This document shows, piece by piece, positions 6,402 to 64,000 of a stretch of 64,000 bases of DNA. Both the position numbers and the translations under genes were made by a program. The notes beneath the pieces were generated by a model that searched no databases, was not told where the DNA came from, and saw only the letters and a list, made by a program, of their open reading frames with translations. The stretch comes from Actinophytocola sp. (lineage in GTDB: Bacteria > Actinomycetota > Actinomycetes > Mycobacteriales > Pseudonocardiaceae), in contig NZ_WHTD01000008.1 in NCBI RefSeq assembly GCF_009379765.1, forward strand, positions 1 through 64,000, written 5' to 3'. Each line of letters starts with the position of its first letter. Position 1 is the first letter of the stretch.

Positions 6402-7436
6402 ATGGACTCTGCTGCCGTGCCCGAGCCGGCCGAGGTCGCCGGCGGCGTCTGGAGCGTCGCGCTGCCCTTCCCCAACCCGCTCGGTTTCGCCTTCTCCTAC
6501 GTGGTTCCGGCGCCGGACGGCGTGCTGGTCGTGGACGCCGGCTGGGACTCCGACGAGTGCTGGGACGCGTTCCGGGCGGGGCTCGCGGCGGCGGGCGCCG
6601 GGCTCGACGACGTGGTCGGCGTGGTCGTCACCCACGTGCACCCCGACCATTACGGGCTGGCGGAACGGATCCGCGCGTCGTCGCCGGCCTGGATCGCGGT
6701 GCATCCCGCGGAGCGGCCGCGGATCGCCGAGGGCGAGCACGACCGGGTCCGCGCGATCGAGGACATGGCCGAGTGGCTGCACCAGGCCGGCGCGCCGGCC
6801 TCGGAGTTCGCCGAGCTGGATGCCGACGCGGCGGACATGCGGTCGCGGATCTCGATGGTGGTCCCCGAACGCGATCTCGTGGACGGCCAGACCGTGCCGG
6901 GCACCGGCGGTGCGCTGGTCGCCGTGCACACACCGGGCCACACGCCGGGCCACCTGTGCTTCCACGACCGGCAGCGGCGCCTGCTGTTCACCGGTGACCA
7001 CATCCTGCCGCGGGTCACGCCGAACATCTCCAAGCGCCCGCAGTCCGATGTGGACCCGCTGCGGGACTTCCTCGGTTCGGTGCGGAAGGTTCGCGGCTTC
7101 GGCGACGTGCAGGTGCTGCCCGGTCACGAGTGGGTCTTCGGCGACCTCGGCGCCCGGCTGGACGTGCTGCTGGTCCACCACGAGGAGCGGCTGACCGAGA
7201 TCGAGGCCGCGGTCGGCGCCGGTGCCGGCACGGTCTGGGCGGTCACCCGCGCGGTGAGCTGGTCGCGGCCGTTCGACAAGCTGCGCGGCCGGGCCCGGCG
7301 CTCGGCCATCGGCGAGACGTTCGCCCACCTGTACCGGCTGGCCGTGGCGGGCCGGATCCAGTGGGTGCCCGGCCGGCCGGACCGTTGGCTGCCGGCCCCG
7401 AGCCGCACGACAGGCGAGCAGCCCGACGTCGCCTAG
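6402..7436 (+). CDS. MBL-fold metallo-hydrolase (glyoxalase II-like)
   Basis: 344 aa from ATG 6402, chosen because GGAGGA lies 6 nt upstream. The metal motif 'THVHPDHYG' (HxHxDH) is complete, with further ligands in 'TPGHTPGHLCF' and 'TGDHIL'. After the lactamase fold comes a helical extension ('LLVHHEERLTEIEAAV') of the kind seen in glyoxalase-II-like and MBLAC-type hydrolases. A thioester or acyl-thiol hydrolase role fits the CoA-heavy surroundings, but that is inference. The stop TAG lies in the CTAG at the left end of a MITE-like element, so the natural 3' end may have been altered. Confidence 0.85.
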   Translation: MDSAAVPEPAEVAGGVWSVALPFPNPLGFAFSYVVPAPDGVLVVDAGWDSDECWDAFRAGLAAAGAGLDDVVGVVVTHVHPDHYGLAERIRASSPAWIAVHPAERPRIAEGEHDRVRAIEDMAEWLHQAGAPASEFAELDADAADMRSRISMVVPERDLVDGQTVPGTGGALVAVHTPGHTPGHLCFHDRQRRLLFTGDHILPRVTPNISKRPQSDVDPLRDFLGSVRKVRGFGDVQVLPGHEWVFGDLGARLDVLLVHHEERLTEIEAAVGAGAGTVWAVTRAVSWSRPFDKLRGRARRSAIGETFAHLYRLAVAGRIQWVPGRPDRWLPAPSRTTGEQPDVA

Positions 7437-7607
7437 TGTCGCGTGACCCTGAAACCTTGACGCCGCTGCGGCCAACAGCGGCCCCTGTCTGTGTTACGGC
7501 GTTGGAGGAAAGCCCAAGTACAACCCGGTACGAGCGACTTTCCTCCGCCTTGCCAGGAACCACGTGGATCCACAGCGGACGCAAGGAACAGGATCACGCG
7601 ACACTAG
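7433..7607. mobile_element. CTAG-bounded MITE-like element, family B, complete copy
   Basis: A 175-bp element beginning CTAGTGTCGCGTGACCCTG and ending CAGGATCACGCGACACTAG, so the ends are inverted repeats flanked by CTAG. The right ~108 bp are the reverse complement of the fragment at 1500-1608. It abuts a second element (7604-7771), sharing the central CTAG. Its left CTAG supplies the stop codon of the MBL hydrolase. No transposase inside. Confidence 0.8.
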
Positions 7608-7771
7608 TGTCCCGCGCCGGGAGTCTGTTGCTTATCTCGGCGGATCCTGGTTTCTGCTGGCAAGGCGCCGGTTCGTCCTCGTACCGGGTTGTACTCGGGC
7701 GGACCGGCAACGCCGCCAGCGGGAAGCTGGGCCGGCGAGATAAGTGATGAACTTCCGGCGCGGGACACTAG
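7604..7771. mobile_element. CTAG-bounded MITE-like element, family C
   Basis: A 168-bp element with ends CTAGTGTCCCGCGCCGGGAGT and ACTTCCGGCGCGGGACACTAG. It includes a subterminal GGCGAGATAAGTGATG paired with CTTATCTCGGC near the other end, giving a long hairpin. A shorter relative is at 2677-2763. Nested directly against family B, it may have used the CTAG of the first element as its target. Confidence 0.75.
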
Positions 7772-9127: not shown

Positions 9128-9223
9128 GGAGGCGTACGTGTTCCTGGTGGGCGCCGCGGTCTTCAAAACCGACGTGGCCCGGTATCCGGGCCAGGCAGGT
9201 TCGATTCCTGTCCGCCTCCGCCA
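9128..9223 (+). tRNA. selC: tRNA-Sec (anticodon TCA)
   Basis: A 96-nt tRNA including an encoded CCA. The acceptor arm GGAGGCG pairs with CGCCTCC, followed by discriminator G and CCA. The anticodon stem-loop has TCA at 9163-9165, which reads UGA. The long class-II variable arm is an 8-bp perfect stem, TGGCCCGG-TAT-CCGGGCCA. The T-arm is CAGG-TTCGATT-CCTG. The long variable arm, UCA anticodon and extended acceptor/T stack identify tRNA-Sec rather than a nonsense-suppressor tRNA. selB starts 22 bp downstream and may be co-transcribed. Confidence 0.97.
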
Positions 9224-11030: not shown

Positions 11031-11228
11031 GAACCCCGCGAGTCCAACCCCCAGGACCCGCGAGTCCAACCCCCAGGACCCGCGAGTCCAACGTTCCGGA
11101 CCCGCGAGTCCAACGCTCGGATCGGGGCTCGGCGACGGGCTCGGCGTGCCGGCCACCCGGCCGCGGCCCGGGCCGATCGCGAACAGGGGGACTCGCGGGT
11201 CGGGAGCGGGGGACTCGCGGGGTCTGGG
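11031..11228. repeat. 22-bp-period repeat array (core ACTCGCGGGTC / GACCCGCGAGT)
   Basis: Downstream of selB, AGTCCAACCCCCAGGACCCG-type units repeat every 22 bp four times (11041, 11063, 11085, 11107). After a spacer the reverse orientation (GGACTCGCGGGTC, GGACTCGCGG) appears twice. The opposite orientations can fold into a long hairpin, so the array may end selB transcription. Related arrays are at 14157, 36370 and 63660. Confidence 0.75.
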
Positions 11229-13103: not shown

Positions 13104-14152
13104 TGTCGTTCGCTGGCAAGGAGATCACCGGTGACCTGCTCGCCTACGACGACGTCGAGGCCATGGGCGAGGAGTTCTACGGCGAGAAGTGGACCGACGG
13201 CCTGCCGGTCGTAGCCCCGACCGCGGACCGCGTCGAGCGCATGCTCGGCGCGGCCGACGGCGGCGAGCTGCTGGGGACGATGCCGCCGCGGTGGCGGCGG
13301 ACGTTCGTGCACCACGTGGCGGTCAACGCGGTGCTCGCGGGGTGCCGGCCGGAGTATTTTCCCGTTGTGCTGGCGGGGGTTCGGGCGATCCTCGATCCCA
13401 GGCTGAACCTCTACGGGGTGCAGGGGACGACCAACCCGGCCGGCGTGATGCTGGTCGTGAACGGCCCGGCGCGGCTGGCGCTGGACGTCAACAGTGGCCA
13501 CAACCTCTTCGGCCAGGGCTGGCGCGCCAACGCCACCATCGGCCGCGCGATCCGGCTGTGCATGATCAATATCGGCGGCGGTCTGCCCGTGCTGGGCGAC
13601 ATGTCCACATTGGGCAACCCGAACAAGTACGGGTCGTGCATCGCGGAGAACGAGGAGGAAAGCCCGTGGGCTCCGTTCCATGTGGAGCGTGGCTTCGGTG
13701 CTGACGAGTCGGTGGTCACCGCGGCGGGCGTGACCGCGCCGCAGAACATCGCGATCCTGTCCCAAGACCCGGTCGCGATCCTCGACGGCATCGCCGGCGC
13801 GCTGATGAGCAGCGGGAGCAACCTGCTGCTGTTCACCGCGCAGCCCCTGGTGGTGATCGGCCCGGTGCACGCGAAGCACCTGGCTCGCAACGGCTACGAC
13901 AAGCCGTCGATCCGCCGGTACCTGTGGGAGCACGGCACGATCGAGCTGACCGGTGTGGGCGGCACCGACGGCAAGGCCATGCGCGAGTGGAAGGCGCGGT
14001 GCGTCCACGTCGAGGGCTCCCGGGAGTTCCTCCGCCCGTCGGTGACGCCCGAGGACATCGGGATCGTCGTGGCGGGCGGGAAGAGCGGGCCGCACAGCGC
14101 GGTGCTGCAGCCGTTCAACATCACCCAGCTGGTGAGCATGGCGGTGTCCTGA
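13103..14152 (+). CDS. UGSC-partner family protein, copy a
   Basis: 349 aa, ATG overlapping the UGSC-1 stop and preceded by GGAGG. The function is not established. Family landmarks shared by the paralogues here are 'WTDGLPVVAPT' near residue 30, 'AVNAVLAGCRPEYFPVV' (Cys81), 'GPARLALDVNSG', 'RANATIGRAIRL', 'NKYGSCIAENEEESPW' (Cys179) followed by 'FHVERGF', then 'GPVHAKHLARNGYDK' and a C-terminal 'GIVVAGGKSGPHSAV'. The two invariant cysteines could work with the UGSC Sec/Cys pair. No signal peptide or membrane helix. Translational coupling and the natural fusion at 17-19 kb argue that this family acts together with UGSC proteins. Confidence 0.85.
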   Translation: MSFAGKEITGDLLAYDDVEAMGEEFYGEKWTDGLPVVAPTADRVERMLGAADGGELLGTMPPRWRRTFVHHVAVNAVLAGCRPEYFPVVLAGVRAILDPRLNLYGVQGTTNPAGVMLVVNGPARLALDVNSGHNLFGQGWRANATIGRAIRLCMINIGGGLPVLGDMSTLGNPNKYGSCIAENEEESPWAPFHVERGFGADESVVTAAGVTAPQNIAILSQDPVAILDGIAGALMSSGSNLLLFTAQPLVVIGPVHAKHLARNGYDKPSIRRYLWEHGTIELTGVGGTDGKAMREWKARCVHVEGSREFLRPSVTPEDIGIVVAGGKSGPHSAVLQPFNITQLVSMAVS

Positions 14153-14156
14153 GCGG

Positions 14157-14212
14157 GGAACTCGCGGGTCGAGAATGGGGGACTCGCGGGTCCTGGGGGT
14201 TGGACTCGCGGC
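14157..14212. repeat. 22-bp-period repeat array
   Basis: Three units starting ACTCGCGGGTC or ACTCGCGG at 22-bp spacing follow the stop of the partner gene. The same core occurs at 11031, 36370 and 63660. It precedes a family A element. Confidence 0.7.
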
Positions 14213-14341
14213 TTGGCGCCAGCCTCGCACCGACCAACGCAAGCTCAGGGGACCGTGACGGCACCCAACCACCAACCGACAGCGATCCGCACCATCCGCT
14301 GGAACGCAACCAACACTTTTAATTCCGGGGAGGCGGACTAG
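14213..14341. mobile_element. MITE-like element family A, copy 1 (left end lost)
   Basis: It shares a ~125-bp body with 26556-26801, 30275-30450 and (inverted) 41928-42080: 'CTCAGGGGACCGTGACG', 'CCAACCACCAACC', 'GCAACCAACACTTTTAATTC' and the right end CGGGGAGGCGGACTAG. The left CTAG...TGTCCCATGGATC end is missing. The right end overlaps the 3' end of the ABC ATPase gene on the minus strand and supplies its last codons and stop. Confidence 0.75.
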
Positions 14342-15323
14342 CGAAGTGGCAGCGGGACGGGTGTCCGTGTGCCCCGCGGTCCTCCAGCTCCGGCACCTCC
14401 TCGGCGCAGATGTCGGCGGCCTTCCAGCACCTCGTCCGGAACGTGCATCCCGACGGCAGGTCGGTCGGGCTCGGCAGGTCGCCCTCGAGCAGGATCCGGT
14501 GCACGCTGTCGCGCTTCGACGGGTCCGGGATCGGCACCGCGGAGAGCAGCGCCTGGGTGTACGGGTGGGTCGGCCGCTCGTAGATGTCGTGCTCGTCGCC
14601 CAGCTCGACGATCTTCCCGAGGTACATCACCGCGACCCGGTCGGAGATGTGCCGCACCACGGACAGGTCGTGCGCGATGAACACATAGGACAGTCCGAAG
14701 TCGGCCTGGATGTCGGCCAGCAGGTTGATCACCTGCGCCTGCACGGAGACGTCCAGCGCGGACACCGGCTCGTCGCAGACGATCACCTCGGGGTCCAGTG
14801 CCAGGACCCGCGCGATGCCGATCCGCTGCCGCTGCCCGCCGGAGAACTGGTGCGGATACCGGTCCACGAACGAGGGATCCAGCCCGACCCGCTCCAGCAG
14901 CTCCCCGGCCCGTGCCCGGTGCTTGGCCCGCGGCACGATCCCGCGGTGGATCGCCCACGCCTCGGTCACGAGGTCGCCGACGGTCATCCTCGGGTTCAGC
15001 GACGCGTAGGGGTCCTGGAAGATGATCTGGATCTTGCGGCGCACCTCGCGCAGCTCGCGGCGGTTCATCGAGAACACGTCCCGCCCGCGGTAGAACACCC
15101 GGCCCTCGGTCGGCTCGTCCAGCCGCAGCAGCGTGCGGCCGAGCGTGGACTTCCCGCAGCCCGACTCCCCGACCAGCCCGAGCGTCTCGCCCTCGTGCAG
15201 CTCGAAGCTGACCCCGTTGACCGCCTTCACCTGGCCGGTGGTTCGCCGAACCCCGGTACCTTCCTTGATGGGGAACCACTTGACCACGTTCTCCACCCGC
15301 AGCACAGGCTCCTCAGCGTTCAC
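14319..15323 (-). CDS. Dipeptide/oligopeptide ABC transporter ATP-binding protein (DppF/OppF type)
   Basis: 334 aa from GTG 15323, overlapping the DppD-like gene by 11 nt. Walker A is '[13 protein letters not shown]', the signature '[13 protein letters not shown]', Walker B 'VIVCDEP'. A C-terminal oligopeptide-transporter extension has a cysteine cluster ('[16 protein letters not shown]'). Together with the DppD-like gene it forms the ATPase pair of a peptide/opine-type importer whose permeases are missing here but present at 52-55 kb. The last residues ('SPPPRN', stop TAA) are read from a family A repeat, so the native C-terminus has been replaced. Confidence 0.9.
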
Positions 15324-16356
15324 CGCGCACCACCTCCGCGCCGAAGTGACAGGCCGCCCGGCGGCCGGGCGCCACCTCGACCGCGTCCGGCCGGTCCGTC
15401 GCACACATGTCCTCGGCCAGCGGGCAGCGCGGGTGGAACTCGCAGCCCGCCGGGATGGCGGACAGGTTCGGCGGCGACCCGTCGATCGCCTCCAGCCGGC
15501 CACCCTTCTGGTCCGCCCGCGGGATCGAGCGCATCAGCGCCCGGGTGTACGGGTGCGCGGGACCGTCGTACACCTCGGCGATCGACCCGTACTCGATGCC
15601 GCGGCCGGCGTACATGACGACCGCGTGGTCGGCGACCTCGGCCACCACGCCGAGGTCGTGGGTGATGAGCACCAGACCCATGCCGAGGTCGTGCCGAAGC
15701 TCCGCCAGCAGCGCCATGATCTGCGCCTGCACGGTGACGTCGAGCGCGGTGGTCGGCTCGTCGGCGATCAGCAGGTCCGGCTCCAGCGCGATGGCCATCG
15801 CGATCATCACCCGCTGCCGCATGCCGCCGGAGAACTGGTGCGGGTAGTCGCCGATCCGGTTGCGCGCGTTGGGGATCCGCACCCGGTCGAGCAGCTCGGC
15901 CGCTCTCGTCGAGGCGTCGGCATGGGAGAGCCCGCGGTGCACCCGGAACATCTCCGCGATCTGGAACCCGACCGTGAACACCGGGTTCAGCGCGGTCAGC
16001 GCGTCCTGGAAGATGATCGCGATCCGCTCCCCGCGGATGCGCCGCAGCTCCTTGCGGGACAGCGTCAGCAGATCCACGTCGTCGAACAGCACCTCGCCGC
16101 CGGTGACGTAGCCGGGTGGCGACTCGATGATGCCGAGCACCGCCCGCGCGGCCACCGACTTGCCCGACCCGGACTCGCCGAGGATCGCCAGCGTCTCCCC
16201 GCGGTTGACCGAATAGGACAGTCCGTTGACCGCGTTGGTCAGGCCGTAGGAGGTGCGGTACTCGACCCGCAGGTCGCGCACCTCCAGCAGCGGCCGGCCC
16301 GGGGCCGCGTCCGTGCGCCGCGGCACGGCCCGGGTCGAGGACACAGGCGAGCCCAT
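15313..16356 (-). CDS. Dipeptide/oligopeptide ABC transporter ATP-binding protein (DppD/OppD type)
   Basis: 347 aa, ATG 16356 sharing one base with the stop of the amidohydrolase gene. Walker A '[12 protein letters not shown]', signature '[12 protein letters not shown]', Walker B 'LLIADEP', and the C-terminal '[18 protein letters not shown]' of OppD/DppD subunits. It acts with the DppF-like subunit to energise import. The amidohydrolase and UGSC-2 fusion upstream in the same operon suggest the imported compound feeds that enzyme set. Confidence 0.9.
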
Positions 16357-20863: not shown

Positions 20864-21100
20864 GCTGTGACACCCTGCCTCGCTCCGCTCGGCGTGGACG
20901 GCATTCGCGCGAAGCACGGTGGTTGGCTTGGTCGGTCGGCTCACGCCGTGACACCTGCCTTGCTCCGCTCGGCGTGGACGGCATTCGCGCGAAGCAAGGT
21001 GGTTGGGTTGGTTGGTTTGCTCATGCTGTGGCACCTGCCTCGCTCCGCTCGGCGTGGACGGCATTCGCGCGAAGCACAGTGGTTGCGTTGGTCATTCGGC
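20858..21100. repeat. Three tandem ~80-bp repeats
   Basis: Units start at about 20858, 20939 and 21019 (GCTCAYGCYGTGRCACC...), and a fourth partial start lies at 21099. Each holds CTCCGCTCGGCGTGGACGGC and ATTCGCGCGAAGCA. The first unit overlaps the CoA-transferase start codon and the last abuts the dipeptidase stop, so the whole intergenic region consists of this repeat. In minus-strand translation each unit encodes 'LRANAVHAERSEAG'-like text, which explains the spurious N-terminal extensions in the ORF track. Confidence 0.85.
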
Positions 21101-22066
21101 TCACGCCCAGGCCGCCTCGAGCACGCGCAGGTGGTTGCCGCCGAGGATGGCCCGCACCGCGTCGGTGTCGTAGCCGCGCCCGACGAGTGCCGTGGCCAGG
21201 TTGGGGAACTCGGAGATCGTGGCGATGCCGGTAGGCCAGGACCAGGGCGGGTCGCCGTAGATCTCCCGCGGCAGGCTCGCGAAGCGGTCGTAGAACGCGC
21301 GCGGGTGGTTCTCGAAGATCGCGAGCCCGATGCCGACGTGCTCGACGCCGATGCGCGCCACGATGTGGTCGACGTGGTCCAGCATGTGGTCGATCCGCAC
21401 GCCGGGACCGCCCGCGTAGAAGGGGATCCCGGACACGCCGACCACGCCGCCGTTCGCGGCGACCAGGTCGAGCTGCTCGTCGGTGAGGTTGTTCGGGTGG
21501 TCGAACACGGCGCGGGCGTTGGTGTGGCTCCAGATCGCCGGCCGGGTGGCGACCGCGCACGCGTCGCGCAGCGTCTCCGGGCTCGCGTGGCACAGGTCCA
21601 GCAGCACCCCCCGGCCCTGCAGCTCCTCGACGAGTCCGACGCCGAACCGGGACAGGCCGGTGTCGACCCGGTCGCCCGGACCGCAGCCCGCGTCGTTGAG
21701 CGTGGTGTAGACGAGCTGCATCCGGCGGACGCCGAGGTCGTGGAAGAGCTCGACCTTGCGCAGGTCCTTGTCCAGCTGGCGGGAGTCCTCCAGCGCCAGG
21801 ATGAGCCCGAGCCTGCCGTTCTCCTTGGCCGAGCGGATGTCGGCGACCGTGCGGACGATCACGGCCGCGTCGGCGTTGGCCGCGACCATCGCGCGCAGGT
21901 CGAGGATCTTCTCGACGGCCGCGGTGAACGGGTCGGTGATCGACACCGGCACCATCGCGGCGGTCACGCCCGCGTCGCGGACGGTTCGCAGGTAGTCGCC
22001 GGTGAGCCCGGCGTTGTTCATGCTGTCGATCACGAGGGTGTCGCGGTACACGTCTGGGATGGCCAC
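21101..22066 (-). CDS. M19 (renal dipeptidase-like) membrane dipeptidase family protein
   Basis: About 321 aa from GTG 22066. The N-terminal 'DTLVIDSMNNAG' takes the place of the usual metal-binding 'IDGHND'. Later motifs fit M19: 'ALEDSRQL', 'QLVYTTLNDAGCG', 'VLLDLCHASPETL', 'PAIWSHTNARAVFDHPNNLT' and 'GVEHVGIGLAIFE', where typical members have 'GxDFDG'. The loss of both His/Asp motifs (N-terminal HxD and DFDG) means some metal ligands are changed, so the activity may not be peptidase. Divergent from the alpha-hydroxyacid oxidase, sharing an AT-rich box. Few bases separate box and start, so the mRNA may be leaderless. Confidence 0.78.
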   Translation of the reverse strand: MAIPDVYRDTLVIDSMNNAGLTGDYLRTVRDAGVTAAMVPVSITDPFTAAVEKILDLRAMVAANADAAVIVRTVADIRSAKENGRLGLILALEDSRQLDKDLRKVELFHDLGVRRMQLVYTTLNDAGCGPGDRVDTGLSRFGVGLVEELQGRGVLLDLCHASPETLRDACAVATRPAIWSHTNARAVFDHPNNLTDEQLDLVAANGGVVGVSGIPFYAGGPGVRIDHMLDHVDHIVARIGVEHVGIGLAIFENHPRAFYDRFASLPREIYGDPPWSWPTGIATISEFPNLATALVGRGYDTDAVRAILGGNHLRVLEAAWA

Positions 22067-24187: not shown

Positions 24188-25642
24188 ATGGTGGCACCGA
24201 ACGTCCTCGAGGACCGAACCGGCGACGCGATGCTCGACCTCGTCCGCTGGGCGGGCGGGCTGACCATCGCCGACATCCCGGAGGCGGTCGTCGACGACAC
24301 CCAGCGGCGGCTGCTCGACCTGGTCGCCGCCGGCCTCGCCGGCACCCAGGCCGACGGCGTCCCGCAGCTGCTGCGCGCGGTCGCCGACTGGGGCGGCCGC
24401 CCGGTCGCGAGCGTCATCGGCTGCCCCGAGCGCACCTCGGTGCCGCACGCGGTGCTGCTCAACGCCACGATCAGCCGCGCGCTGGAGCTCGACGACGTGC
24501 ACGAGAAGGCGTTGCTGCACCCGACCGTCGCCACCGCGCCGATCGCGCTGGCGCTCGCCGAGCAGGACCGGTCGATCGACGGCGCGCGCCTCCTCACCGC
24601 GCTCGTCGCCGCGCAGGAGGTGATGTGCCGGCTCGGGCTCGCGCCGGAGTACCACGTCGCCGGGCCGCGGCACCGGCCGCGCGGCTGGTCGTTCACCTAC
24701 CAGTGCGGTGCGCTCGGCGGCGCGCTCGTGGCGGCCCTGCTGCGCGGGCTCGACGAGTCACGCACGCTCGACGCGCTGGGCAACGCCTACACCGCGCTCG
24801 CCGGCAACCAGCAGGCGATCAAGGAGGCCGCGCTCGCCATCCAGGTGCAGCAGGGAGTGACCGCGCAGACCGCGGTGCAGTCCGCCGACCTCGCCGCGTT
24901 GGGGATCACCGGGCCGCACGAGGTGCTGGAGGGGGAGTACGGCTGGCTCAGCTACTGGCACGGCGGCTCCTACGACCGGTCCGTCGTCGTGACGGAGCTC
25001 GGGGAACGCTGGGAGTCGGCGGGCGCGAGCGTCAAGCCCTACCCGGTCTGCCGGATCACGCACAACACGGTCGGCGCGACGCTCGCCGCCACCGCGGGGG
25101 TCGCGCCCGCGGACGTCGACCGGATCGTGGTGCACGTCAACAGCCAGGAGAGCTGGGAGGAGGTCGTGCACCCGCTGGAGCGCCGCAGGCGGCCGACGTC
25201 GTCGATGGACGCGCAGTTCAGCCTGCCGTTCATCGTCGCGATCGCGGCCGTGCGGGGGACCGTGACGCTGGCCGACCTGACCGAGTCGGCCATCCGCGAC
25301 CCCCGGGTGCTGGCCCTGGCCGACCGCGTCGAGCCGGTGCTCGACCCGGGGTTCGAGGCGGCGGCGGGCCGGGTGATCCCGATGCCGGTCACGGTGGACG
25401 TCCACCTGCGCGACGGCGCGGTGGTCAGCAGGCGGTCGGCGCATCCGCTCGGGCATCCGGGCAACCCGATGGACTGGGCCGCGGTGGAGGCGAAGGTGTG
25501 GGACTGCGCCGCGTGGGGCGTCACCCCCGCGGACGGCGCGGTGGTCGAGGAGCTGGTCGCGGCGGTGCGGGGGTTGGCGTCGGAACCCTCGCCGGGCCGG
25601 GTGGCCGGGCTGCTGGCGCGGGCGAAGGCGGTGTCGGCATGA
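24188..25642 (+). CDS. MmgE/PrpD family protein (2-methylcitrate dehydratase/aconitate decarboxylase fold)
   Basis: 484 aa. The family pattern is clear: 'RLLDLVAAGLAGTQADG', 'HAVLLNATISRALELDDVHE' (conserved Asp-Asp), 'GWSFTYQCGALGGALVAAL', 'KPYPVCRITHNTV' and 'TSSMDAQFSLPFIVAIAAV'. Members dehydrate or decarboxylate tricarboxylic acids such as 2-methylcitrate. In catabolic islands they often handle other branched polycarboxylates. It overlaps the next gene by 4 nt (ATGA), so both are in one transcript starting at the AT-rich box. The substrate is not deducible. Confidence 0.85.
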   Translation: MVAPNVLEDRTGDAMLDLVRWAGGLTIADIPEAVVDDTQRRLLDLVAAGLAGTQADGVPQLLRAVADWGGRPVASVIGCPERTSVPHAVLLNATISRALELDDVHEKALLHPTVATAPIALALAEQDRSIDGARLLTALVAAQEVMCRLGLAPEYHVAGPRHRPRGWSFTYQCGALGGALVAALLRGLDESRTLDALGNAYTALAGNQQAIKEAALAIQVQQGVTAQTAVQSADLAALGITGPHEVLEGEYGWLSYWHGGSYDRSVVVTELGERWESAGASVKPYPVCRITHNTVGATLAATAGVAPADVDRIVVHVNSQESWEEVVHPLERRRRPTSSMDAQFSLPFIVAIAAVRGTVTLADLTESAIRDPRVLALADRVEPVLDPGFEAAAGRVIPMPVTVDVHLRDGAVVSRRSAHPLGHPGNPMDWAAVEAKVWDCAAWGVTPADGAVVEELVAAVRGLASEPSPGRVAGLLARAKAVSA

Positions 25643-26559
25643 AGGCGGCGCGGCTGCACGAGTTCGGGTCACCGCTGCGGATCGACGACGTGCCGGCGCC
25701 CGCGCCGGGTCCCGACGAGGTGCTCGTCCGGCTGACCCACGCCGGGGTCAACCCGATCGACATCCGGCTGCGGGACGGCGGCGCCGGGCGCGTCGAGCTG
25801 CCGTTCGTGCCGGGCTGCGACGGCGTGGGGCGGGCCGACTCGGGGCCGGTCGTCGTCTACGGCGCGGGGCTCGGGCTGCGGCGGGCGGGCACGTACGCCG
25901 AGCAGGTCGCGGTGCCGGCGAAGGGCGTGGTGCGGCTGCCGGACGGGGTGGATCCGGTGCAGGCGGCCGGGATCGGGCTCGCCGGGGTGACCGCGTGGGC
26001 GCTCGTCGGGCGCGGGGTGACGGCCGCGGACCGGGTGCTCGTGCTGGGTGCCAGTGGTGGCGTCGGCTCGCTGGCGGTGCAGCTCGCGCGCTCGGCCGGG
26101 GCGCGGGTGTGGGCCCAGACCACCGACCCGGAGGACGCCTCGCGGCTGGATCTCGGTGCCGATCGGGTCGTCGCGTGCGACGCGGCCGGGCTGCGCGACG
26201 CGGTCCGCGAGCTGGAGCCGACCGTGGTGCTCGACGGGCTCGGCGGCGCGTTCACCGGCGCGGCCGTCCGGGCGGTGGCGAACGGCGGCCGGATCACCGT
26301 GTTCGGCGTGAGCGCGGGAGCCCGCGGCGAGGTCGACTACGCGACGCTCTACCGCAAGTCGGTGACGCTGTACGGGCACGCGAGCCTCGCGATGCCCGCC
26401 GCCGACGTGCGCGACGCGCTGGTCGGCTGCCTGGAACTGGTCGGCGCCGGACAGGTGCGCGTGTTGGTCGACGAGGTGCTGCCACTGGGCGCGGTCAACG
26501 CCGCGCACCGGCGGCTGACCGAGCGGCGCACCACGGGAAAACTGGTGCTCGCCGTCTAG
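25639..26559 (+). CDS. Zinc-less quinone oxidoreductase / MDR-family alcohol dehydrogenase-like
   Basis: 306 aa, ATG overlapping the PrpD stop. The MDR fold is shown by 'MKAARLHEFGSPLRIDDVP', 'THAGVNPIDIRLRDG', 'VPGCDGVG' and the NADPH-binding 'VLVLGASGGVGSLAVQLARS', ending '...RRTTGKLVLAV'. The catalytic-zinc Cys/His set is absent, as in quinone reductase and enoyl-reductase-like members. It may reduce an enoyl or quinone intermediate. The stop TAG is part of the CTAG that begins a family A repeat. Confidence 0.85.
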   Translation: MKAARLHEFGSPLRIDDVPAPAPGPDEVLVRLTHAGVNPIDIRLRDGGAGRVELPFVPGCDGVGRADSGPVVVYGAGLGLRRAGTYAEQVAVPAKGVVRLPDGVDPVQAAGIGLAGVTAWALVGRGVTAADRVLVLGASGGVGSLAVQLARSAGARVWAQTTDPEDASRLDLGADRVVACDAAGLRDAVRELEPTVVLDGLGGAFTGAAVRAVANGGRITVFGVSAGARGEVDYATLYRKSVTLYGHASLAMPAADVRDALVGCLELVGAGQVRVLVDEVLPLGAVNAAHRRLTERRTTGKLVLAV

Positions 26560-26801
26560 GAAATGTCCCATGGATCAGGCTTGTGGCATGGCCTCGCGCC
26601 GACCAACGGAAGCTCAGGGGACCGCGACGGCACCCAGCCACCAACCACCGCATGTCCGCACCGCTCGCTGGGACGCAACCAACACTTTTAACTCCGGGGA
26701 GGCGGTCTGGCACCCCAGCCACCAACCACCGCATGTCCGCACCGTCCGCTGGACGCGACCAACACTTTAAAATCCGGGGAGGCGGACTAGCGGCGGACTA
26801 G
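26556..26801. mobile_element. MITE-like element family A, copy 2, with internal duplication
   Basis: Begins CTAGGAAATGTCCCATGGATC and ends GGAGGCGGACTAGCGGCGGACTAG. The right-hand ~75 bp ('CACCAACCACCGCATGTCCG' to 'TCCGGGGAGGCGG') are present twice in tandem. CTAG at the left gives the stop of the quinone oxidoreductase and CTAG at the right gives the stop of the convergent NifU-like gene. Confidence 0.8.
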
Positions 26802-27052
26802 AAGCCGACCTTGTCGACGTGCACCTGGCCGACGCCGGGGTCCTGGTCGCGGATCGCCTTGTCGAGGATGGCGACCAGGATCTCGTCGGGCACGAGGCAC
26901 TCCATGCACGCGTCGGGCTTGGCCTCGAGCACGACCCGCACCGAGTTGTCCGGCTCGATGGAGCCGATCCGCAGGTCGAACCCGTCCGCGGCGAGCGCGG
27001 GCCGAACGTTGTCCAGTGCCTTCTCCACAGCCTTCGCCACGGCCTGCTGCAT
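26798..27052 (-). CDS. Small NifU C-terminal-like protein
   Basis: 84 aa. I choose ATG 27052, which follows GAGAGGAG, over the longer track start. The sequence 'MQQAVAKAVEKALDNVRPAL' with a central 'DACMECLVPDEIL' resembles the NifU/Nfu C-terminal domain. In that domain a CxxC pair transiently binds an Fe-S cluster (usual form C-x2-C-P-S-S). Here C-M-E-C is kept but the following Pro-Ser-Ser is not, so a metal or redox role is possible rather than proven. It has its own AT-rich promoter box and so seems to belong to the island regulon. Confidence 0.65.
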   Translation of the reverse strand: MQQAVAKAVEKALDNVRPALAADGFDLRIGSIEPDNSVRVVLEAKPDACMECLVPDEILVAILDKAIRDQDPGVGQVHVDKVGF

Positions 27053-27099
27053 GGTGACCACTCCTCTCGCGGCGGTGGCCACGACGCCACCGGTCGAGA

Positions 27100-27115
27100 C
27101 ATATCATATATCAGA
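27100..27115. promoter_or_regulatory. AT-rich box before the NifU-like gene
   Basis: CATATCATATATCAG in a GC-rich stretch, about 48 bp upstream of the NifU-like ATG. TGATATATGATATG on the minus strand shares TGATATAT with the palindrome at 43142. It lies just after the 3' end of partner d. Confidence 0.6.
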
Positions 27116-29372: not shown

Positions 29373-30278
29373 GTGACCACGGAGTTCGGCGTGACATTGC
29401 AGTCCGGGGCCGACCCGGCCGCGTTCGCCCGGCTGGCCGAGGACGCGGAGTTCGACTACCTGGCGTGCGGGGAGCACCTCGTCTTCCATGGGCCCACCAC
29501 GAACGCGTTCGTCTCGCTGGCGTTCGCGGCCGGGGTGACGTCGCGGATCAAGCTCGTGAGCGCGGTGACGCTGCTGCCGCTCTACCAGCCGACCGTGGCC
29601 GCGAAGCTCGCCGCGTCCCTCGACGTCGTGAGCGGCGGCCGCTTCACCCTGGGGGTCGGGATCGGTGGCGAGTTCCCGCTCGAGTTCGAGGCGGCCGGGG
29701 TGCCGGTCGAGTCGCGGGGCGCGCGGACCGACGAGGCGCTCGAGATCGTCGACCGCCTGCTGACCTCCACCGACGTGTCCTTCGACGGTCGCTTCACGCG
29801 GTTCGCCGGCGTGACGCTCGCGCCGCGCCAGAAGCGCAGGACCCCGTTCTGGATCGCCGGGCGGCGGCCCGCGGCGCTGCGCCGCGCGGCCAGGTGGGGC
29901 GACGCGTGGCTGCCGTACCTGCGCACTCCGGAACAGGTGGCCGAGGGTCGCGCGGCGATCGACGGGTACGCCAGGGCGGACGGCAAGTCCGGCTGGGCGG
30001 GGCGGACCGCGCTGTTCGCGTTCACGACGGTGGACCGGGACGGCGACCGGGCCCGGGAGATGGCCGCGGACCGGGTCGGCCGCACCTACCGGCAGGACTT
30101 CTCCGCGTTCGCGGCGAAGTACCTGGTCGCGGGGACGCCGGAAGAGTGCGTGGCCCGGCTGCGGGAGTATCTCGCGGTGGGGGTGACCACGGTGATCTTC
30201 CGGATCGCGTGCCCCCGCCGGGAGGCGGACACGATGCTGCGGCTGATCGCCGAGGAAGTGGTCCCCGAACTGCGCTAG
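29373..30278 (+). CDS. LLM-class (luciferase-like) flavin/F420-dependent oxidoreductase
   Basis: 301 aa; GTG follows GGGAGG. Family features are 'EFDYLACGEHLVFHG', 'IKLVSAVTLLPLYQPTVAAK', 'SGGRFTLGVGIGGEFPLEFE', 'VPVESRGARTDEALEIV' and 'AARWGDAWLPYLRTPEQ'. Members use FMN or F420 as a co-substrate in monooxygenation or hydride transfer; the cofactor cannot be fixed from sequence alone. TAG 30276-30278 lies in the CTAG starting a family A repeat. Part of the island by its promoter box. Confidence 0.87.
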   Translation: MTTEFGVTLQSGADPAAFARLAEDAEFDYLACGEHLVFHGPTTNAFVSLAFAAGVTSRIKLVSAVTLLPLYQPTVAAKLAASLDVVSGGRFTLGVGIGGEFPLEFEAAGVPVESRGARTDEALEIVDRLLTSTDVSFDGRFTRFAGVTLAPRQKRRTPFWIAGRRPAALRRAARWGDAWLPYLRTPEQVAEGRAAIDGYARADGKSGWAGRTALFAFTTVDRDGDRAREMAADRVGRTYRQDFSAFAAKYLVAGTPEECVARLREYLAVGVTTVIFRIACPRREADTMLRLIAEEVVPELR

Positions 30279-30450
30279 CGCATGTCCCATGGATCATCGC
30301 GTACGGGTTCGACGTGGCTTGGGCGCAAAGCCTTGCACCGACCAAACGCAACCTCAGGGGACCGTGACGCAACCCAACCACCAACCATCGCAGATCCGCA
30401 CCATCCGCTGGAACGCAACCAACACTTTCAATTCCGGGGAGGCGGACAAG
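30275..30450. mobile_element. MITE-like element family A, copy 3
   Basis: Starts CTAGCGCATGTCCCATGGATC, includes CTCAGGGGACCGTGACGC and GCAACCAACACTTTCAATTC, ends GGAGGCGGACAAG (final CTAG mutated to CAAG). It gives the stop codon of the LLM gene and, on the minus strand, the last residues ('PPPRN') and stop of the CoA-transferase/racemase gene. So the element was inserted between, or onto, two convergent gene ends. Confidence 0.8.
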
Positions 30451-31579
30451 CGCCGGAATCGGTGAGACTGGCGATCTCCGCGGCCGAGAAGCCCCAGTCG
30501 GCGAGCACCTCGACCGCGTCGTCGCCGGGGGCCGGGGGTGGGCCGGCCACCGCGCCGGGCGTGCGGCTGAACCGGGGCGCCGGGGCAGGCTGTGGCACCC
30601 CGCCGACGTCCACGAACGCCGCGCGGGCCACGTGGTGCGGGTGCTCGGTCACCTCGGCCAGGCTCAGCACCGGCGCGAAGCAGGAGTCCGTCCCGCTCAG
30701 CAGCGTGGACCACGCCTCGCGGGTGCGGGTGCGGAACAACGCCTCCAGTCGGGTGCGCAGCAAGGGCCAGTCGGCGTGGGTGATGGGATCCGCCAGACCG
30801 GCGGGGTCCAGGCCGATCCGGCGGAAGAGTTGGCGGTGGAACTTCGGCTCGATCGCGCCGATCGACACGTACTTCCCGTCCGAGGTCTCGTAGACGTCGT
30901 AGAACGGGGCGCCCGAGTCCAGGTAGTTGGTCCCGCGCTCGTCGTGCCAGGTGCCGTTGCGGCGACGGCCGTGGAACTGGGTCATCAGCAGCGACGCGGC
31001 GTCCACCATGGCCGCGTCCACCACCTGGCCCCGGCCGGACGAGCGCGCTTCCAGCAGCGCGCACACCAGCCCGAACGCCAGCAGCATGCCGCCCGCGTTG
31101 TCGCCCACCAGGTTCAGCGGGATCACCGGCGGCCCGCCCGCTCGCCCGATCGGGTCTAGGGCGCCGGCGAGCGCGATGTAGTTGATGTCGTGACCCGCGG
31201 TCGGCGCGAGCGGACCGTCCTGGCCCCACCCGGTGGCCCGGCCGTACACCAGCCGCGGGTTGCGCGCCATGCAGACCTCCGGGCCGAGACCCAGCCGCTC
31301 GACCACCCCCGGGCGAAACCCCTCGAACAGGGCGTCGGCCCGGTCGGCCAGCCGCAGCACCACGTCCGCGCCGGCCGGATGCTTGAGATCGACCAGCACC
31401 GACCGGCGGCCACGCACCACCAGCTCGAGCCGCGGGTTCGGCGCCTGGACGTGCCGGTCCCCACCCGGGCGATCCACCCGCACGACCTCCGCGCCCAGGT
31501 CCGACAGCATCATGCCGGCGAACGGGCCCGGTCCCCGGCCGGCCAGCTCCACGATCCGCAGCCCGCTCAGTGGTCCCAC
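30428..31579 (-). CDS. Alpha-methylacyl-CoA racemase-type class III CoA-transferase family protein
   Basis: 383 aa. 'MGPLSGLRIVELAGRGPGPF' opens the CaiB/BaiF fold. The racemase branch is suggested by 'TAGHDINYIALAGAL' (catalytic His in G-H-D-x-N-Y) and 'NLVGDNAGGMLLAFGL' (catalytic Asp). Both are residues of AMACR that exchange the alpha proton of a 2-methylacyl-CoA. A racemase would handle a branched acyl-CoA in the island pathway. The C-terminal 'CPPPRN' is read from the family A element. Divergent from the W-type UGSC fusion with an AT-rich box between. Confidence 0.87.
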   Translation of the reverse strand: MGPLSGLRIVELAGRGPGPFAGMMLSDLGAEVVRVDRPGGDRHVQAPNPRLELVVRGRRSVLVDLKHPAGADVVLRLADRADALFEGFRPGVVERLGLGPEVCMARNPRLVYGRATGWGQDGPLAPTAGHDINYIALAGALDPIGRAGGPPVIPLNLVGDNAGGMLLAFGLVCALLEARSSGRGQVVDAAMVDAASLLMTQFHGRRRNGTWHDERGTNYLDSGAPFYDVYETSDGKYVSIGAIEPKFHRQLFRRIGLDPAGLADPITHADWPLLRTRLEALFRTRTREAWSTLLSGTDSCFAPVLSLAEVTEHPHHVARAAFVDVGGVPQPAPAPRFSRTPGAVAGPPPAPGDDAVEVLADWGFSAAEIASLTDSGACPPPRN

Positions 31580-35614: not shown

Positions 35615-36407
35615 GCTCCTCGGGCCGCCACCGCAGCAGCCTGGCCTCCAGGCGCAGCATCGCCTCGTTGAGGACCGTCGCGGTGGCGGCCAGCAGCACG
35701 ACGACGGCGAACAGCGTGTCGGTCCGGAAGAGCTGCGCCGCCTGGTTCATCAGGTAGCCGACGCCCGCGCCGGCCGAGAACACCTCACCCACGACGACCC
35801 CGGTGAGCCCGTGGGCGATCGACTGCCGCACCCCGGTGAGCGCGTACGGCAGGGTCCCGGGCAGCACCACGGTCCGCAGCACCTGCGCCGGTGACCCGCC
35901 GAACGACCGGGACATCCGCACCAGCCGCTGGTCGGCGGCGCGCACCCCGGCCATCGTGTTGAGCAGCACGGGAAAGACGGCGGCGAGGAACACGACGACG
36001 AGCTTGTACTCGAGCCCGAACCCGAACCACACCACGAAAAGCGGCACGAGCGCGATCCGCGGCGTCGAGTAGAACGCCATCACCAGGGGCTCGAACAGGT
36101 CGCGCACGGGCCCGTACCACCCCATGAACAACCCGAGCGGCAACCCGACCCCCACCGCGAGCGCCCACCCGGCGAGGAACCCGGTGGCGGTGGCGTAGGC
36201 GTGCACCGCCCAGAAGTCCGCATCGGACACGAGCGTGCCGAGCGCGGACCCGACCCCGGAGGGCGACCCGGTGAACACCGGATCCACCCACCCGGACCGG
36301 GCGAGCAGCTCCCACCCGACGAGCACGAGAACGAGGAACCCGCCACCCCGAACCACTCTGCGGGAACGGCGGACTCGCGGGTCCGGAGTGGGGGACTCGC
36401 GGGTCAT
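35586..36407 (-). CDS. ABC transporter permease, SsuC/TauC type (second of a pair)
   Basis: 273 aa. ATG 36407 overlaps the stop of the preceding permease (ATGA), which fixes the start. The first residues ('[15 protein letters not shown]') are encoded by a 22-bp-period repeat array, an odd N-terminus created by a repeat. After that the protein is a normal permease: 'SPSGVGSALGTLV', 'RIALVPLFVVWFG' and the loop 'MSRSFGGSPAQVLRTVVLPG'. It is last in the operon OsmC - solute-binding protein - ATPase - permease - permease, so the channel is probably a heterodimer. Confidence 0.88.
   Translation of the reverse strand: MTRESPTPDPRVRRSRRVVRGGGFLVLVLVGWELLARSGWVDPVFTGSPSGVGSALGTLVSDADFWAVHAYATATGFLAGWALAVGVGLPLGLFMGWYGPVRDLFEPLVMAFYSTPRIALVPLFVVWFGFGLEYKLVVVFLAAVFPVLLNTMAGVRAADQRLVRMSRSFGGSPAQVLRTVVLPGTLPYALTGVRQSIAHGLTGVVVGEVFSAGAGVGYLMNQAAQLFRTDTLFAVVVLLAATATVLNEAMLRLEARLLRWRPEELSAPRASSA
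36370..36406. repeat. 22-bp-period repeat (two units) inside a permease start
   Basis: Two ACTCGCGGGTC cores 22 bp apart. They lie within the first codons of the permease gene on the minus strand, showing this repeat can be tolerated in coding sequence. Confidence 0.7.
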
Positions 36408-37219
36408 CGGGGTTGCCAGCGGGTGAGTCGCTTCTCTGCCACGCCGAGCAGCTCGTTCAGCAGGGTGCCGCAGGCGGCCACGATCACCACGGCCGCGATG
36501 ATCCGTTCCACCTGGATGGTCATCGCCGCGTCGGCGATCACCCAGCCCAGGCCCGCCGCCGACGCCCACATCTGCGCGCCGACCACGCCCGTCACCGCGT
36601 GCGTCAGGGCCTGCCGCACGCCCGCGAACACCAGCGGCACCGAGCCCGGCAGCGCCACCGTCCGCAGGAGCTGCCAGGGCGACGCGCCGAACGAGCGGGC
36701 CATCGCCACCAGCCGCGGGCGCGCGTCCCGCACGCCCGCGACCGTGTTCAGCAGCACCGGGAAGACGCTCCACAGCGCGACAACCGTGACCTGGTAGGCG
36801 AACCCGTAGCCCAGCCACACCATCAGCAGCGGGATCAGCGCGATCCGCGGCACGGCGTTCAGCACGAACACGAACGGCTCCAGCGTCTCCCGGACCGCGC
36901 GGCTCCAGCCCATCACCACGCCGAGCCCGATCCCCGCCACGACCGCGATCACCCAGCCGGCCGCGAACCCCCGCACGGTCGCCAGCACGTGCACCGACCA
37001 GAACGAGCCCTCCCCGGTCAGCGCCGCCAGCGTCGACGCCACCTCGGTCGGCGAGCTCACGTACAGCTTCGTGTGCGGGCCGGACCGCGACGCGAGCTCC
37101 CAGCACCCCAGCAGCACGACGATCAGCCCGCCGCCCAGGGACAGCCGGTGCCGGCGGCGTGACCGAGGTGGCGCCGGCACCCGGGCCGGCGCCGCGGGCC
37201 GCCGCAGCACCGCGGTCAC
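36404..37219 (-). CDS. ABC transporter permease, SsuC/TauC type (first of a pair)
   Basis: 271 aa from GTG 37219, overlapping the ATPase stop (GTGA). An Arg/Pro-rich cytoplasmic N-tail precedes '[15 protein letters not shown]'. Then come '[14 protein letters not shown]', '[16 protein letters not shown]' and the EAA-type loop '[20 protein letters not shown]'. It pairs with the permease at 35586, with which it shares the loop motif. Part of an uptake operon for an organic anion. Confidence 0.88.
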
Positions 37220-41927: not shown

Positions 41928-42080
41928 CTAGTCCGCCTCCCCGGATTTTTATGCGGGGGTTGCGTCCCGGCACAGGTGCGGGTGGCAAGGTGGATTGTGG
42001 CTGGGTATCGTCACGTTCCCCTGAGGTATCTGTTGATCGAGCGCGGACTTTCGCACAAAGATCCACGGGACAGGGACTAG
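41928..42080. mobile_element. MITE-like element family A, copy 4 (inverted, complete)
   Basis: A 153-bp element bounded by CTAG on both sides. Left end CTAGTCCGCCTCCCCGGAT, right end GATCCACGGGACAGGGACTAG. The inner sequence CACGTTCCCCTGAGG corresponds to the family core. The right CTAG provides the stop codon of the solute-binding protein at 42077. The ends show a short inverted repeat (CTAGTCC/GGACTAG). Confidence 0.8.
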
Positions 42081-43126
42081 CCGATCGCTTCCTTGACGAT
42101 GTCGGCGGCGACGGCCTTCTCGTAGTCCACGCCGAGGGGCGTGCCGCTCGTGTCGGCGAAGTCGGACAGCGCCTTGAACGCCTCGGGCGTGATCAACGGC
42201 GAGTCCGGCACGGACTTGACTGAGTAGGCGTAGGCCGCGTCGAACGTCTTCGCGTCGAGGTCGGGGAACTCCTTGCGCAGGCAGGGCTTGCCGGCGTCGG
42301 GGTCGTCCCGCAGGAGCTTCATGGCGTCGGCGATGCCGGCCACGAGCGCCTTGACCTTGTCCGGGTTCTGCGCGAGCTCCCGGGTGTTCGCCGAGCCGAC
42401 CAGGTAGGGGTACTGGGTCAGCTCCTCGAACTCGTCACCGGAGAACAGGATCTTGCCGATCCCCTGCGACTCGGCCTGGTTGCCGTTGGGCGGCGAGCCG
42501 GCGAGCCCGCCGATCTTGTCGATCTTCATCGCGGCGAACATGTTGCTGTAGTTGTTCAGCGCGAGCATCCGGATGTCCTTGTCCGGGTCCATCCCGAACT
42601 TCGGCAGCACGAACCGCAGGAGCTGGTCGATCGAGTCGCCCGGGTTGAGGATCGCGACGGTCTCGCCACGCAGCGCGTGCACCCGGTCCTCGAGCGAGGA
42701 GTCCGGGGTGACGCCCGTCGCGTCGATGAGCTTGTTGCTGCCGACGACCTGCACGCCGTAGCCGCGGCTCGCGTTGAACAGCATCTGGACCGGGGCGCCC
42801 TCGCGGATCGGGCTCACCGCCGCGGGCGCGCCGGTCATCGCCGACAGCGCGTCGCCGGAGACCAGGCCGGCGATGGCGGCGGTGGTGCCCTGCGGGGAGA
42901 CGGTCAGCTCGACGTCCAGGCCGTGATCGGTGAAGTAGTTCTCGCACACCGCCACGTACGCGGCGGCCCAGGTGATGACCTTGCCGCCCAACACGATCGT
43001 GGCCGAGCCGAGGTCGGTCGTGCCTGAGCCGCTGTCCGCGGCTCCCTCGTCGCCGCACGAGGTGAGACCGAGGACCAGTGCGAGAGCGGCGGTCGCGGCG
43101 CCGATGCCGCGAATCGTGCGAACCAT
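42077..43126 (-). CDS. ABC transporter solute-binding lipoprotein (SsuA/NMT1 type)
   Basis: 349 aa. Signal peptide with lipobox 'LGLTSCGDEG'. The binding fold is shown by 'AAYVAVCENYFTDHGLDVEL', 'TTAAIAGLVSGDALSAMTGA', 'LRGETVAILNPGDSIDQLLR' and 'FPDLDAKTFDAAYAYSVKSV'. It is an intact paralogue of the frameshifted protein at 33330. No permease is adjacent, so it may supply the permease at 34766 together with the ATPase at 44055. Divergent from the GntR regulator with palindromic boxes between them, a usual place for direct control. Confidence 0.88.
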   Translation of the reverse strand: MVRTIRGIGAATAALALVLGLTSCGDEGAADSGSGTTDLGSATIVLGGKVITWAAAYVAVCENYFTDHGLDVELTVSPQGTTAAIAGLVSGDALSAMTGAPAAVSPIREGAPVQMLFNASRGYGVQVVGSNKLIDATGVTPDSSLEDRVHALRGETVAILNPGDSIDQLLRFVLPKFGMDPDKDIRMLALNNYSNMFAAMKIDKIGGLAGSPPNGNQAESQGIGKILFSGDEFEELTQYPYLVGSANTRELAQNPDKVKALVAGIADAMKLLRDDPDAGKPCLRKEFPDLDAKTFDAAYAYSVKSVPDSPLITPEAFKALSDFADTSGTPLGVDYEKAVAADIVKEAIG

Positions 43127-46757: not shown

Positions 46758-48229
46758 CAGATCACTCCGTCCGCGCGTAGGGCCGCGAGCGTGGTCTCGT
46801 CGAGGCCGAGCTCGGCGAACACCGTCGCGTTGTCGGCGCCGCGGGGTGGGCCCGCGTGCTCGACGGTGTGCTCGCGGCTCGGGAACTTCGGCACGACGCC
46901 CTGCATCAGCACCGGGCCGAGCACGTCGTCGGCCACCTCGATGAGGTCGCCCCTGGCCTGGAACTGCGGGTCGGCCACGATGTCCTCGGCGGAGTACACC
47001 TGCTGGTGCACCGCGTCCGCCTCGGCGAGGCGCTTCTCGAGCGTGGCGTAGTCCCACTTGGCGGCCCAGATGTGCAGCAGCTCGTCGCACTCGTCGAGGA
47101 ACTCGACCACCGCGGCCGGGTCGCTCATCATCACGCCCGCGTCGACGCGGGCCATCTGCGGCACGGCCTCGGCGGCCTGCAGGATGCGCCGGATCGCCGC
47201 CGGGCCCACCGCGCTCACCACGAACCACCTGCCGTCCGCGGACCGGAAGAGGTTGCGCAGCACGCCGTGGCTGGTGAGCTTGTTGCCCGGCCGGTGCGGC
47301 GCGGTGCCGAACTGGTGGTAGCTCGCGATCTGGGTCGGGATGATCCGGAACAGGCCCTCGAACAGCGCGATGTCGACGACCTCGACGCCGGTGGCCGGAC
47401 CGTTGTGCCCGCGGCCCCACAGCGCGGCCATGATCCCGAACGCGCCGAACGTGGCCGCGACGCCGTCCGCGAGCGTGGTCGACGGGAAGGTCGGCGGGCC
47501 GTCCGACTCGCCGTTGAGGTGGGCGAACCCGCTGATCGCCTCCGCGATCGTGCCGAACCCGGGGCGGCCGCTGACCGGACCGCTCTGGCCGAACCCGGAG
47601 ATCCGCAGCATCACCGCGTCGACCCCGGCCGCGGTCAGGTCGGCCGGGCCCAGGCCCCACTTCTCCAGCGTGCCGGGGCGGAAGTTCTCGCAGATGACGT
47701 CCGCGTCCCTGGCCAGCTCGACGGCGAGCTCGCGGCCGCGCCCGGTGTTGATGTCGAGCGTGATCACCCGCTTGCCGCGCTGGATGACCGACCACCACAT
47801 GGACTGCTCGCCCTTGCGCGGCAGCATGGTCCGGATCGAGGTCTTGGTCGGGTGCTCGACGGCGATCACGTCCGCGCCGAGGTCGGCGAGCAGGCTCGCG
47901 GACAGCGCGCCGGAGTACTGGTGGGACAGGTCGAGCACGCGCAACCCGGCGAGAATCGGCCCGCCCGCCAGCCCCCCCGAGCCACCCCAAGGCCCCGCCG
48001 CGTCACCCCGCGACGTGGCCGTGTCGCCCGCTGGCGTCGATGAGTCGTCCCGTGGCGTAGCCGTGTCGCCCGCTGGCGTAGTCGTGTCGTCTGGTGGCGT
48101 GGCCGTGTCGCCCGCTGGCGTGGTCGTGCTGTCCCGTGGCGTGGCCGTGTCGTCCGCTGGCGTGGCCATGTCGTCTGGTGGCGTGGCTGTGTCGTCCGGC
48201 TGTGTCGTCGGTTCGCTGGTCACGGTCAT
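46757..48229 (-). CDS. Class III CoA-transferase with a heptad-repeat N-terminal extension
   Basis: 490 aa. The first ~75 residues are about nine 7-residue repeats of the type T-A-T-P-x-D-D, encoded by 21-bp DNA repeats. The CaiB/BaiF enzyme then starts at 'ILAGLRVLDLSHQYSGALSA', with 'LADLGADVIAVEHP', 'NFRPGTLEKWGLG' and the catalytic Asp in 'STTLADGVAATFG'. The ATG overlaps the upstream CoA-transferase stop (ATGA). The Thr/Pro/Asp-rich extension is not part of the family and is probably disordered. It transfers CoA to a carboxylic acid substrate of the pathway. Confidence 0.88.
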   Translation of the reverse strand: MTVTSEPTTQPDDTATPPDDMATPADDTATPRDSTTTPAGDTATPPDDTTTPAGDTATPRDDSSTPAGDTATSRGDAAGPWGGSGGLAGGPILAGLRVLDLSHQYSGALSASLLADLGADVIAVEHPTKTSIRTMLPRKGEQSMWWSVIQRGKRVITLDINTGRGRELAVELARDADVICENFRPGTLEKWGLGPADLTAAGVDAVMLRISGFGQSGPVSGRPGFGTIAEAISGFAHLNGESDGPPTFPSTTLADGVAATFGAFGIMAALWGRGHNGPATGVEVVDIALFEGLFRIIPTQIASYHQFGTAPHRPGNKLTSHGVLRNLFRSADGRWFVVSAVGPAAIRRILQAAEAVPQMARVDAGVMMSDPAAVVEFLDECDELLHIWAAKWDYATLEKRLAEADAVHQQVYSAEDIVADPQFQARGDLIEVADDVLGPVLMQGVVPKFPSREHTVEHAGPPRGADNATVFAELGLDETTLAALRADGVI

Positions 48230-63654: not shown

Positions 63655-63762
63655 TCCACGCCCGCGAGTCCAACGCTCCGGACCCGCGAGTTCGACGTTT
63701 GGGGCTGTGGGTGGGGTCGTGAGTGTTGGACTCGCGGGTCGTGAACGTTGGACTCGCGGGAT
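63655..63762. repeat. 22-bp-period repeat array, both orientations
   Basis: CCCGCGAGTCCAACG and ACCCGCGAGTTCGACG lie 22 bp apart. After a GTGGG-rich spacer, TTGGACTCGCGGG occurs twice in reverse orientation, also 22 bp apart. The two halves can form a large hairpin. It is upstream of selA (divergent side) and resembles the array behind selB. Confidence 0.72.
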
Positions 63763-64000
63763 TCCTGGGCGAATTTTCGGAGTAACGGCAATACGGCAAA
63801 TGGCGGCTCGGTCACCCGGATGCCGTCCTTCGGTATCACCCCGCGTATTACCGGAGGATCACGGGTCCGCCGGGTGGTGGATTGCCGTACCAGGTCGCCT
63901 GCGGAATTCTGTTCCGACCATCCGGGACGACATCGGCATGCGGCCCACGCCGAATTCCCGGACGGGCGCGCACCCATCCGGCGAAAGGAAGTCCCGGATG
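63763..64000 (+). other. Upstream region and possible start of a gene leaving the window
   Basis: No ORF that I trust lies in this stretch. The last bases, GAAAGGAAGTCCCGGATG, put an ATG (63998-64000) 8 nt after AAGGAAG, so a plus-strand gene may begin exactly at the window edge. Nothing can be said about its product. Confidence 0.3.

Follow-up and report, generated by a model that had tools for sequence, protein, structure and literature searches.

The window analysed here is a stretch of 64,000 nucleotides from an Actinophytocola sp. (RefSeq assembly GCF_009379765.1, contig NZ_WHTD01000008.1, positions 1 to 64,000), which carries four copies of a short repeat, A to D, at the ends of the genes listed in Table 1. 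The original prediction, made from the letters of the window, had proposed these four copies, and they are present far above chance (44 genome matches to copy A at E <= 0.001). It had also placed the TAG stops of the dehydrogenase, NifU, LLM and NMT1-like solute-binding genes in the CTAGs that flank the elements, and the ends of a DppF-like ATPase and of a second protein inside an element, all of which we find to be so. The second protein had been called a racemase; it does end inside the element, but according to Pfam it belongs to CoA-transferase family III.

Table 1. Repeat copies in the window and their neighbour genes.
Feature	Position	Strand	Remarks
Copy A, type I	14212..14341 (approximate start)	+	3' CTAG 14338-14341; conserved core 14244-14336
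Copy B, type I	26556..26801	+	Full copy extends to ~26711; CTAG 26556 (5' end)
Copy C, type I	30275..30449	+	5' CTAG 30275; 3' end CAAG; core 30353-30445
Copy D, type I	41928..42080	-	CTAG 41928 and 42077 (both ends); core ~41933-42025
Oligopeptide ABC transporter ATPase (DppF-like)	14319..15503	-	Terminal ASPPPRN and stop read from copy A
Zinc-binding dehydrogenase (quinone oxidoreductase type)	25600..26559	+	TAG stop is the copy B 5' CTAG; region searched, start not fixed
NifU-domain gene	26798..27103	-	TAG stop is the copy B 3' CTAG; region searched
Luciferase-like monooxygenase (LLM)	29373..30278	+	TAG stop is the copy C 5' CTAG
CoA-transferase family III	30428..31579	-	Terminal CPPPRN and stop read from copy C
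NMT1-like solute-binding protein	42077..43126	-	TAG stop is the copy D 5' CTAG

The copies had further been described as bounded by CTAG, which is correct for both ends of copies B and D only; copy A, the 5' end of which is eroded or unclear, has CTAG at its 3' end and copy C at its 5' end. In copy B the full copy is followed by a partial tandem copy of about 80 bp (~26714-26790) and by GGCGGACTAG as end repeat, the CTAGs there being at 26787 and 26798. Tandem repetition of the 3' element end (GGAGAGGCGGAACAG or GGCGGACTAG) is frequent (loci L115, L116, L126 and L160, and 26784-26801 in the window) and could be a remnant of the way in which the element inserts.

The window contains other repeats as well. 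Tandem repeats of 22 bases (GGACTCGCGGGTC...) lie near gene ends at 11036-11118, 14151-14211, 36364-36415 and 63661-63772, one of the arrays touching copy A, and 20874-21113 and 47956-48207 hold three tandem 80-base units and an array of 21-base units that have diverged, respectively. A second family, of palindromic MITEs of about 155-175 bp that have CTAGTGTCSCGYG at their ends (the genome contains 127 of these ends), is represented at 7433-7607 and 7604-7771, which have one CTAG in common, and from 1500 onward. At the contig end L286:1-645 an end of this family stands next to a truncated IS630-like helix-turn-helix ORF, which is likely to be an autonomous relative. A selenocysteine tRNA is encoded at 9128-9219 (Rfam RF01852, 71.8 bits).

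The elements are about 130-175 bp long, with a core of about 94 bp. When 62 cores, taken from several genera, were aligned, two conserved boxes stood out about 25 variable bases apart, the first with the consensus CTCAGGGGAmCGTGACGnnrCyCAgCCACaA, the second with the consensus ACGcaACCAaCACTnnnAATyCcGGgGAGGCGG, the final bases of which are a strong Shine-Dalgarno sequence. The box 1 pattern (AGGGGAMCGTGACGNNRCNCARCCAC, at most two mismatches) matched 79 times in the genome of Actinophytocola, a soil actinomycete, where the reversed pattern, taken as control, matched 0 times; two Saccharopolyspora genomes gave 124 and 128 matches. The best identity between copies in the genome search with copy A was 93%, and recent, near-identical dispersed copies were not seen in it. 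With a sequence model of the core (R1) we found it in 38 of 201 Pseudonocardiaceae genomes, belonging to 14 of 47 genera, in copy numbers from 1 to about 128 per genome. When 399 genomes sampled from the whole order were searched with the same model, 15 of the 16 positives were Pseudonocardiaceae, and the other match was marginal. Box 1 was absent from viral contigs, and a phage origin was rejected on this ground.

In the 1.8 Mb searched the two boxes occurred together, always about 25 nt apart, and never flanked a transposase or a long insert, by which an autonomous long form was rejected. The reading frame of box 1 differs from copy to copy, so that its conservation is one of DNA or RNA rather than of a peptide, and for the same reason we discarded the long ORFs of the elements as conserved peptides. 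A riboswitch or other structured RNA was likewise dismissed: the RNAalifold energy of the sense-strand consensus was no better than that of shuffled columns, and Rfam had no match to the element. The antisense strand yielded one short stem (-4.6 versus -1.0 +/- 1.1 in shuffles), with no covariation support.

The original prediction of MITE-like elements delimited by CTAG was not borne out in the sense of a classical MITE. CTAG is missing from one end or from both in many copies, clear paired terminal inverted repeats were not found (the ends do not pair), and relatives in other genera, as well as a second type of element in the same genome, are flanked by RTGA stop/start overlaps. The predicted bias to gene ends was upheld. 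In a tree of the cores the labels of the two types cluster (4 changes versus 27 in shuffles), with few forks resolved.

Type I, which is frequent in Actinophytocola, has a 5' half (CTAGnnnnTGTCCCATGGATC...) different from that of type II and is found mostly at the 3' ends of genes, often at CTAG and often between convergent genes. It shows no bias of direction (++ 19, -- 15, +- 27); these left/right counts, and those for type II below, depend on gene calls made with a custom codon-score script. CTAG was tallied in 45 copies with flanks, a few of them of type II. A 5' CTAG is present in 19 of the 45, and in 13 of these it provides the left gene with its TAG stop, as compared with 32 stops among 129 other CTAGs in 447 kb (p=3e-4); the stop of the left gene lies in CTAG in 14/34 cases, versus 38/385 stops overall (p=8e-6). 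At the 3' end, where CTAG occurs in 22/45 copies, it is the stop of a convergent gene in 7/22, which does not differ from the background (p=0.6). Genome-wide, the over-use of CTAG as a stop applies to the 5' end and not to the 3' end. Since the 3' CTAG serves as a stop no more often than the background does, it seems to be the end of the element itself (GGCGGACTAG). Eight of the 45 copies have CTAG on both ends, and in eight copies the convergent gene reads about 18 bases into the element and ends in ...PPPRN or similar.

Type II sits between co-directional genes in several genera, among them Saccharopolyspora, Labedaea and Amycolatopsis; of 20 further copies in the Actinophytocola genome, 17 have the ++ orientation and thereby this same setting. 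The orientation is strongly biased (++ 83 versus -- 21, p=7e-10). The stop of the upstream gene forms an RTGA at the 5' end of the element, and the downstream gene starts 4 or 7 bases past the conserved Shine-Dalgarno end, GGAGGCGG; relative to the core, the stops of the upstream genes cluster at -40 and -34 and the downstream starts at +4 and +7. Among the 42 type II copies with a left RTGA, 24 have an ORF that runs from the left RTG(A) to exactly the right RTGA, while the other two frames of the same copies are open in 2/84; the phase of the right start is biased too (38/58, p=5e-7). The pairs split by elements are of the pyrB-pyrC (in two genera), purS-purQ and trpB-trpA kind, names that we read from the proteins and not from annotation. 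Two orthologous sites free of the element (L139 compared with L181, and L194 compared with L182) show a plain ATGA overlap. In Saccharopolyspora (L117, L166) a lipoyl-domain acyltransferase-like protein carries the element ORF as an in-frame fusion that lengthens it at the N-terminus, and the ORF seems to serve as the N-terminus of that protein.

The region of the window is syntenic with A. oryzae at about 80% identity. At the site of copy B, A. oryzae has no element and a single palindromic CTAG (G002:C2:533811), which serves the dehydrogenase (ending ...LVLAL) and NifU (ending ...GFENVEAH) alike as TAG stop; in the window each gene has a separate CTAG, and the proteins end in ...LVLAV and ...VDKVGF. 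This empty site, where one CTAG ends two convergent genes, supports the earlier idea of a low-damage insertion at stop codons. The NifU of the window is six codons shorter than its A. oryzae orthologue and lacks the ENVEAH tail. The right flank of copy B has therefore also changed, by 18 bp, and for this reason the comparison is not that of a clean duplication. The site of copy D is empty in A. oryzae as well, with a few bases between the TGA stop of the solute-binding gene there and the start that follows, as are the sites L003, L025 and L020, the last with CTGA on both sides when filled and a single CTGA when empty. Few sites show a clear target duplication. At L012/L068 the element is absent without a resolved junction, the unclear alignments L110/L079, L060/L149 and L141/L115 were left out of the set of empty sites, and the flanks of copies A and C are rearranged or replaced in A. 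oryzae. L010/L059 and L019/L098 are filled sites common to both species, which indicates that some of the insertions are old.

From these results we propose that the repeats probably constitute a Pseudonocardiaceae family of short non-autonomous mobile elements, with a sequence of its own, that insert at stop codons in the manner of MIRUs. A protein acting in trans would insert the element at a stop codon, leaving a stop codon on each side, so that both neighbours would stay expressed. Type II, presumably the older form, would enter RTGA stop/start overlaps in operons; the start of its mini-ORF would overlap the upstream stop and its stop the next start, and the mini-ORF together with the Shine-Dalgarno end would allow ribosomes to pass from gene to mini-ORF to gene by translational coupling. 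Type I, with its other 5' half, would be a form derived in Actinophytocola that enters TAG or TGA stops; for convergent gene ends two stops would suffice. Neither the boxes in the 1.8 Mb nor the PF13546 loci led to a mobilising enzyme or an autonomous partner, and an IS701-type (DDE_5) partner was rejected because the five PF13546 loci in the genome have no matching CTAG ends in the stretch examined.

Alternatively, type I could be an ordinary MITE that depends on an IS630-like transposase with the TA in CTAG as its target, the same machinery serving the second, palindromic family (ends CTAGTGTCSCG), CTAG coinciding with stops merely because in a G+C-rich genome it is rare and concentrated there. 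CTAG is indeed rare (~0.3 per kb) and 25% of the background CTAGs are stop codons, some type I copies start with CTAGTGTCCC or CTAGTGCCC, an IS630-like helix-turn-helix ORF adjoins the end CTAGTGTCCCGCG at a contig end, and the left flanks of the elements include CTAG, TTAG, CTAA and TTAA. We nevertheless regard this explanation as unlikely, for the use of the 5' CTAG as a stop exceeds that background, the 3' element end is not the matching inverted repeat, and CTAG is absent where the same core lies at RTGA sites of other genera and in the type II copies of Actinophytocola itself. A comparison with IS630-type terminal inverted repeats found the type II ends unrelated and in type I only a short 5' likeness. 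Since a palindromic CTAG family and a truncated IS630-like ORF are present, type I may have gained ends that an IS630-like transposase uses, which we offer as a lead only.

Random insertion without target preference, followed by selection against gene-damaging copies, would be expected to leave survivors at gene edges, as most of the DNA is coding; the nucleotide-exact positions of stops and starts relative to the core, the coincidence of the ORF ends with RTGA and the enrichment of the left stops for CTAG or RTGA make it very unlikely. To a conserved leader or cis-regulatory RNA of the riboswitch or attenuator kind, duplicated before many genes, we give hardly any credence. It could account for the constant Shine-Dalgarno spacing and for two boxes so strongly conserved across several genera, but not for a sense strand without consensus structure or Rfam match, neighbour genes without an evident common pathway, empty orthologous sites, and a type I that lies mostly at 3' gene ends.

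Insertion at stop codons, the reading that we prefer, has its closest counterpart in the MIRUs of mycobacteria. MIRUs are the basis of tuberculosis typing and were reportedly found by Supply et al. in 1997 to insert at DTGA with an overlap at both ends; to our knowledge, the mechanism by which they spread has not been worked out. They are short interspersed intergenic repeats with many copies, co-directional with the flanking genes, and contain a mini-ORF with a 4-nt overlap that couples it to its neighbour; their insertion at start codons causes little damage (PMC12548453). The repeats, for which Supply et al. (1997) are cited, have been stated to be exclusive to M. leprae and the M. tuberculosis complex (PMC4213456). 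Type II has the traits of a MIRU in its RTGA on the left and right, its ATGA empty sites, its mini-ORF overlapping both neighbours and its co-directional setting, whereas type I, with CTAG/TAG, convergent genes, no coupling and no orientation bias, lacks them. The elements differ from MIRUs in belonging to another bacterial family and in that their two conserved boxes and Shine-Dalgarno end are shared by many genera. The Pseudonocardiaceae element would thus work like a MIRU, the comparison being one of the described mode and not of sequence.

With MITEs of the IS630/Tc1 type, which have CTAG (TA) as target, the element has in common its small size, its non-coding nature and the CTAG flanks of type I; it differs by having no paired terminal inverted repeats and by the target of type II. 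The enterobacterial RU-1/2/3, the Neisseria Correia and the pneumococcal BOX/RUP repeats are mostly palindromic or TIR-bounded, have TA-type targets and are not known to be bound to stop codons as the present element is. They resemble the element in being able to supply ORF segments or gene ends, and they too are short dispersed repeats (PMC2759123, PMC2229807, PMC3049150). An account of such repeats in Pseudonocardiaceae was not found in the literature, a search that covered few subscription papers and is weak evidence of absence.

More tentatively, and with the odds rather against it, one could imagine a widespread class of mobile elements inserted by a machinery for which stop codons are the recognition signal, either the TGA of stop/start overlaps or the TAG of CTAG. 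MIRUs and the Pseudonocardiaceae family would be separate members of this class, and one lineage would have switched from splitting operon junctions, with a mini-ORF for coupling, to convergent gene ends. The elements rewrite gene ends and N-termini, and with more than 100 copies per genome, many species, a copy number graded from 1 to about 128 and empty sites, the family makes the mobiliser and its target rule open to comparison.
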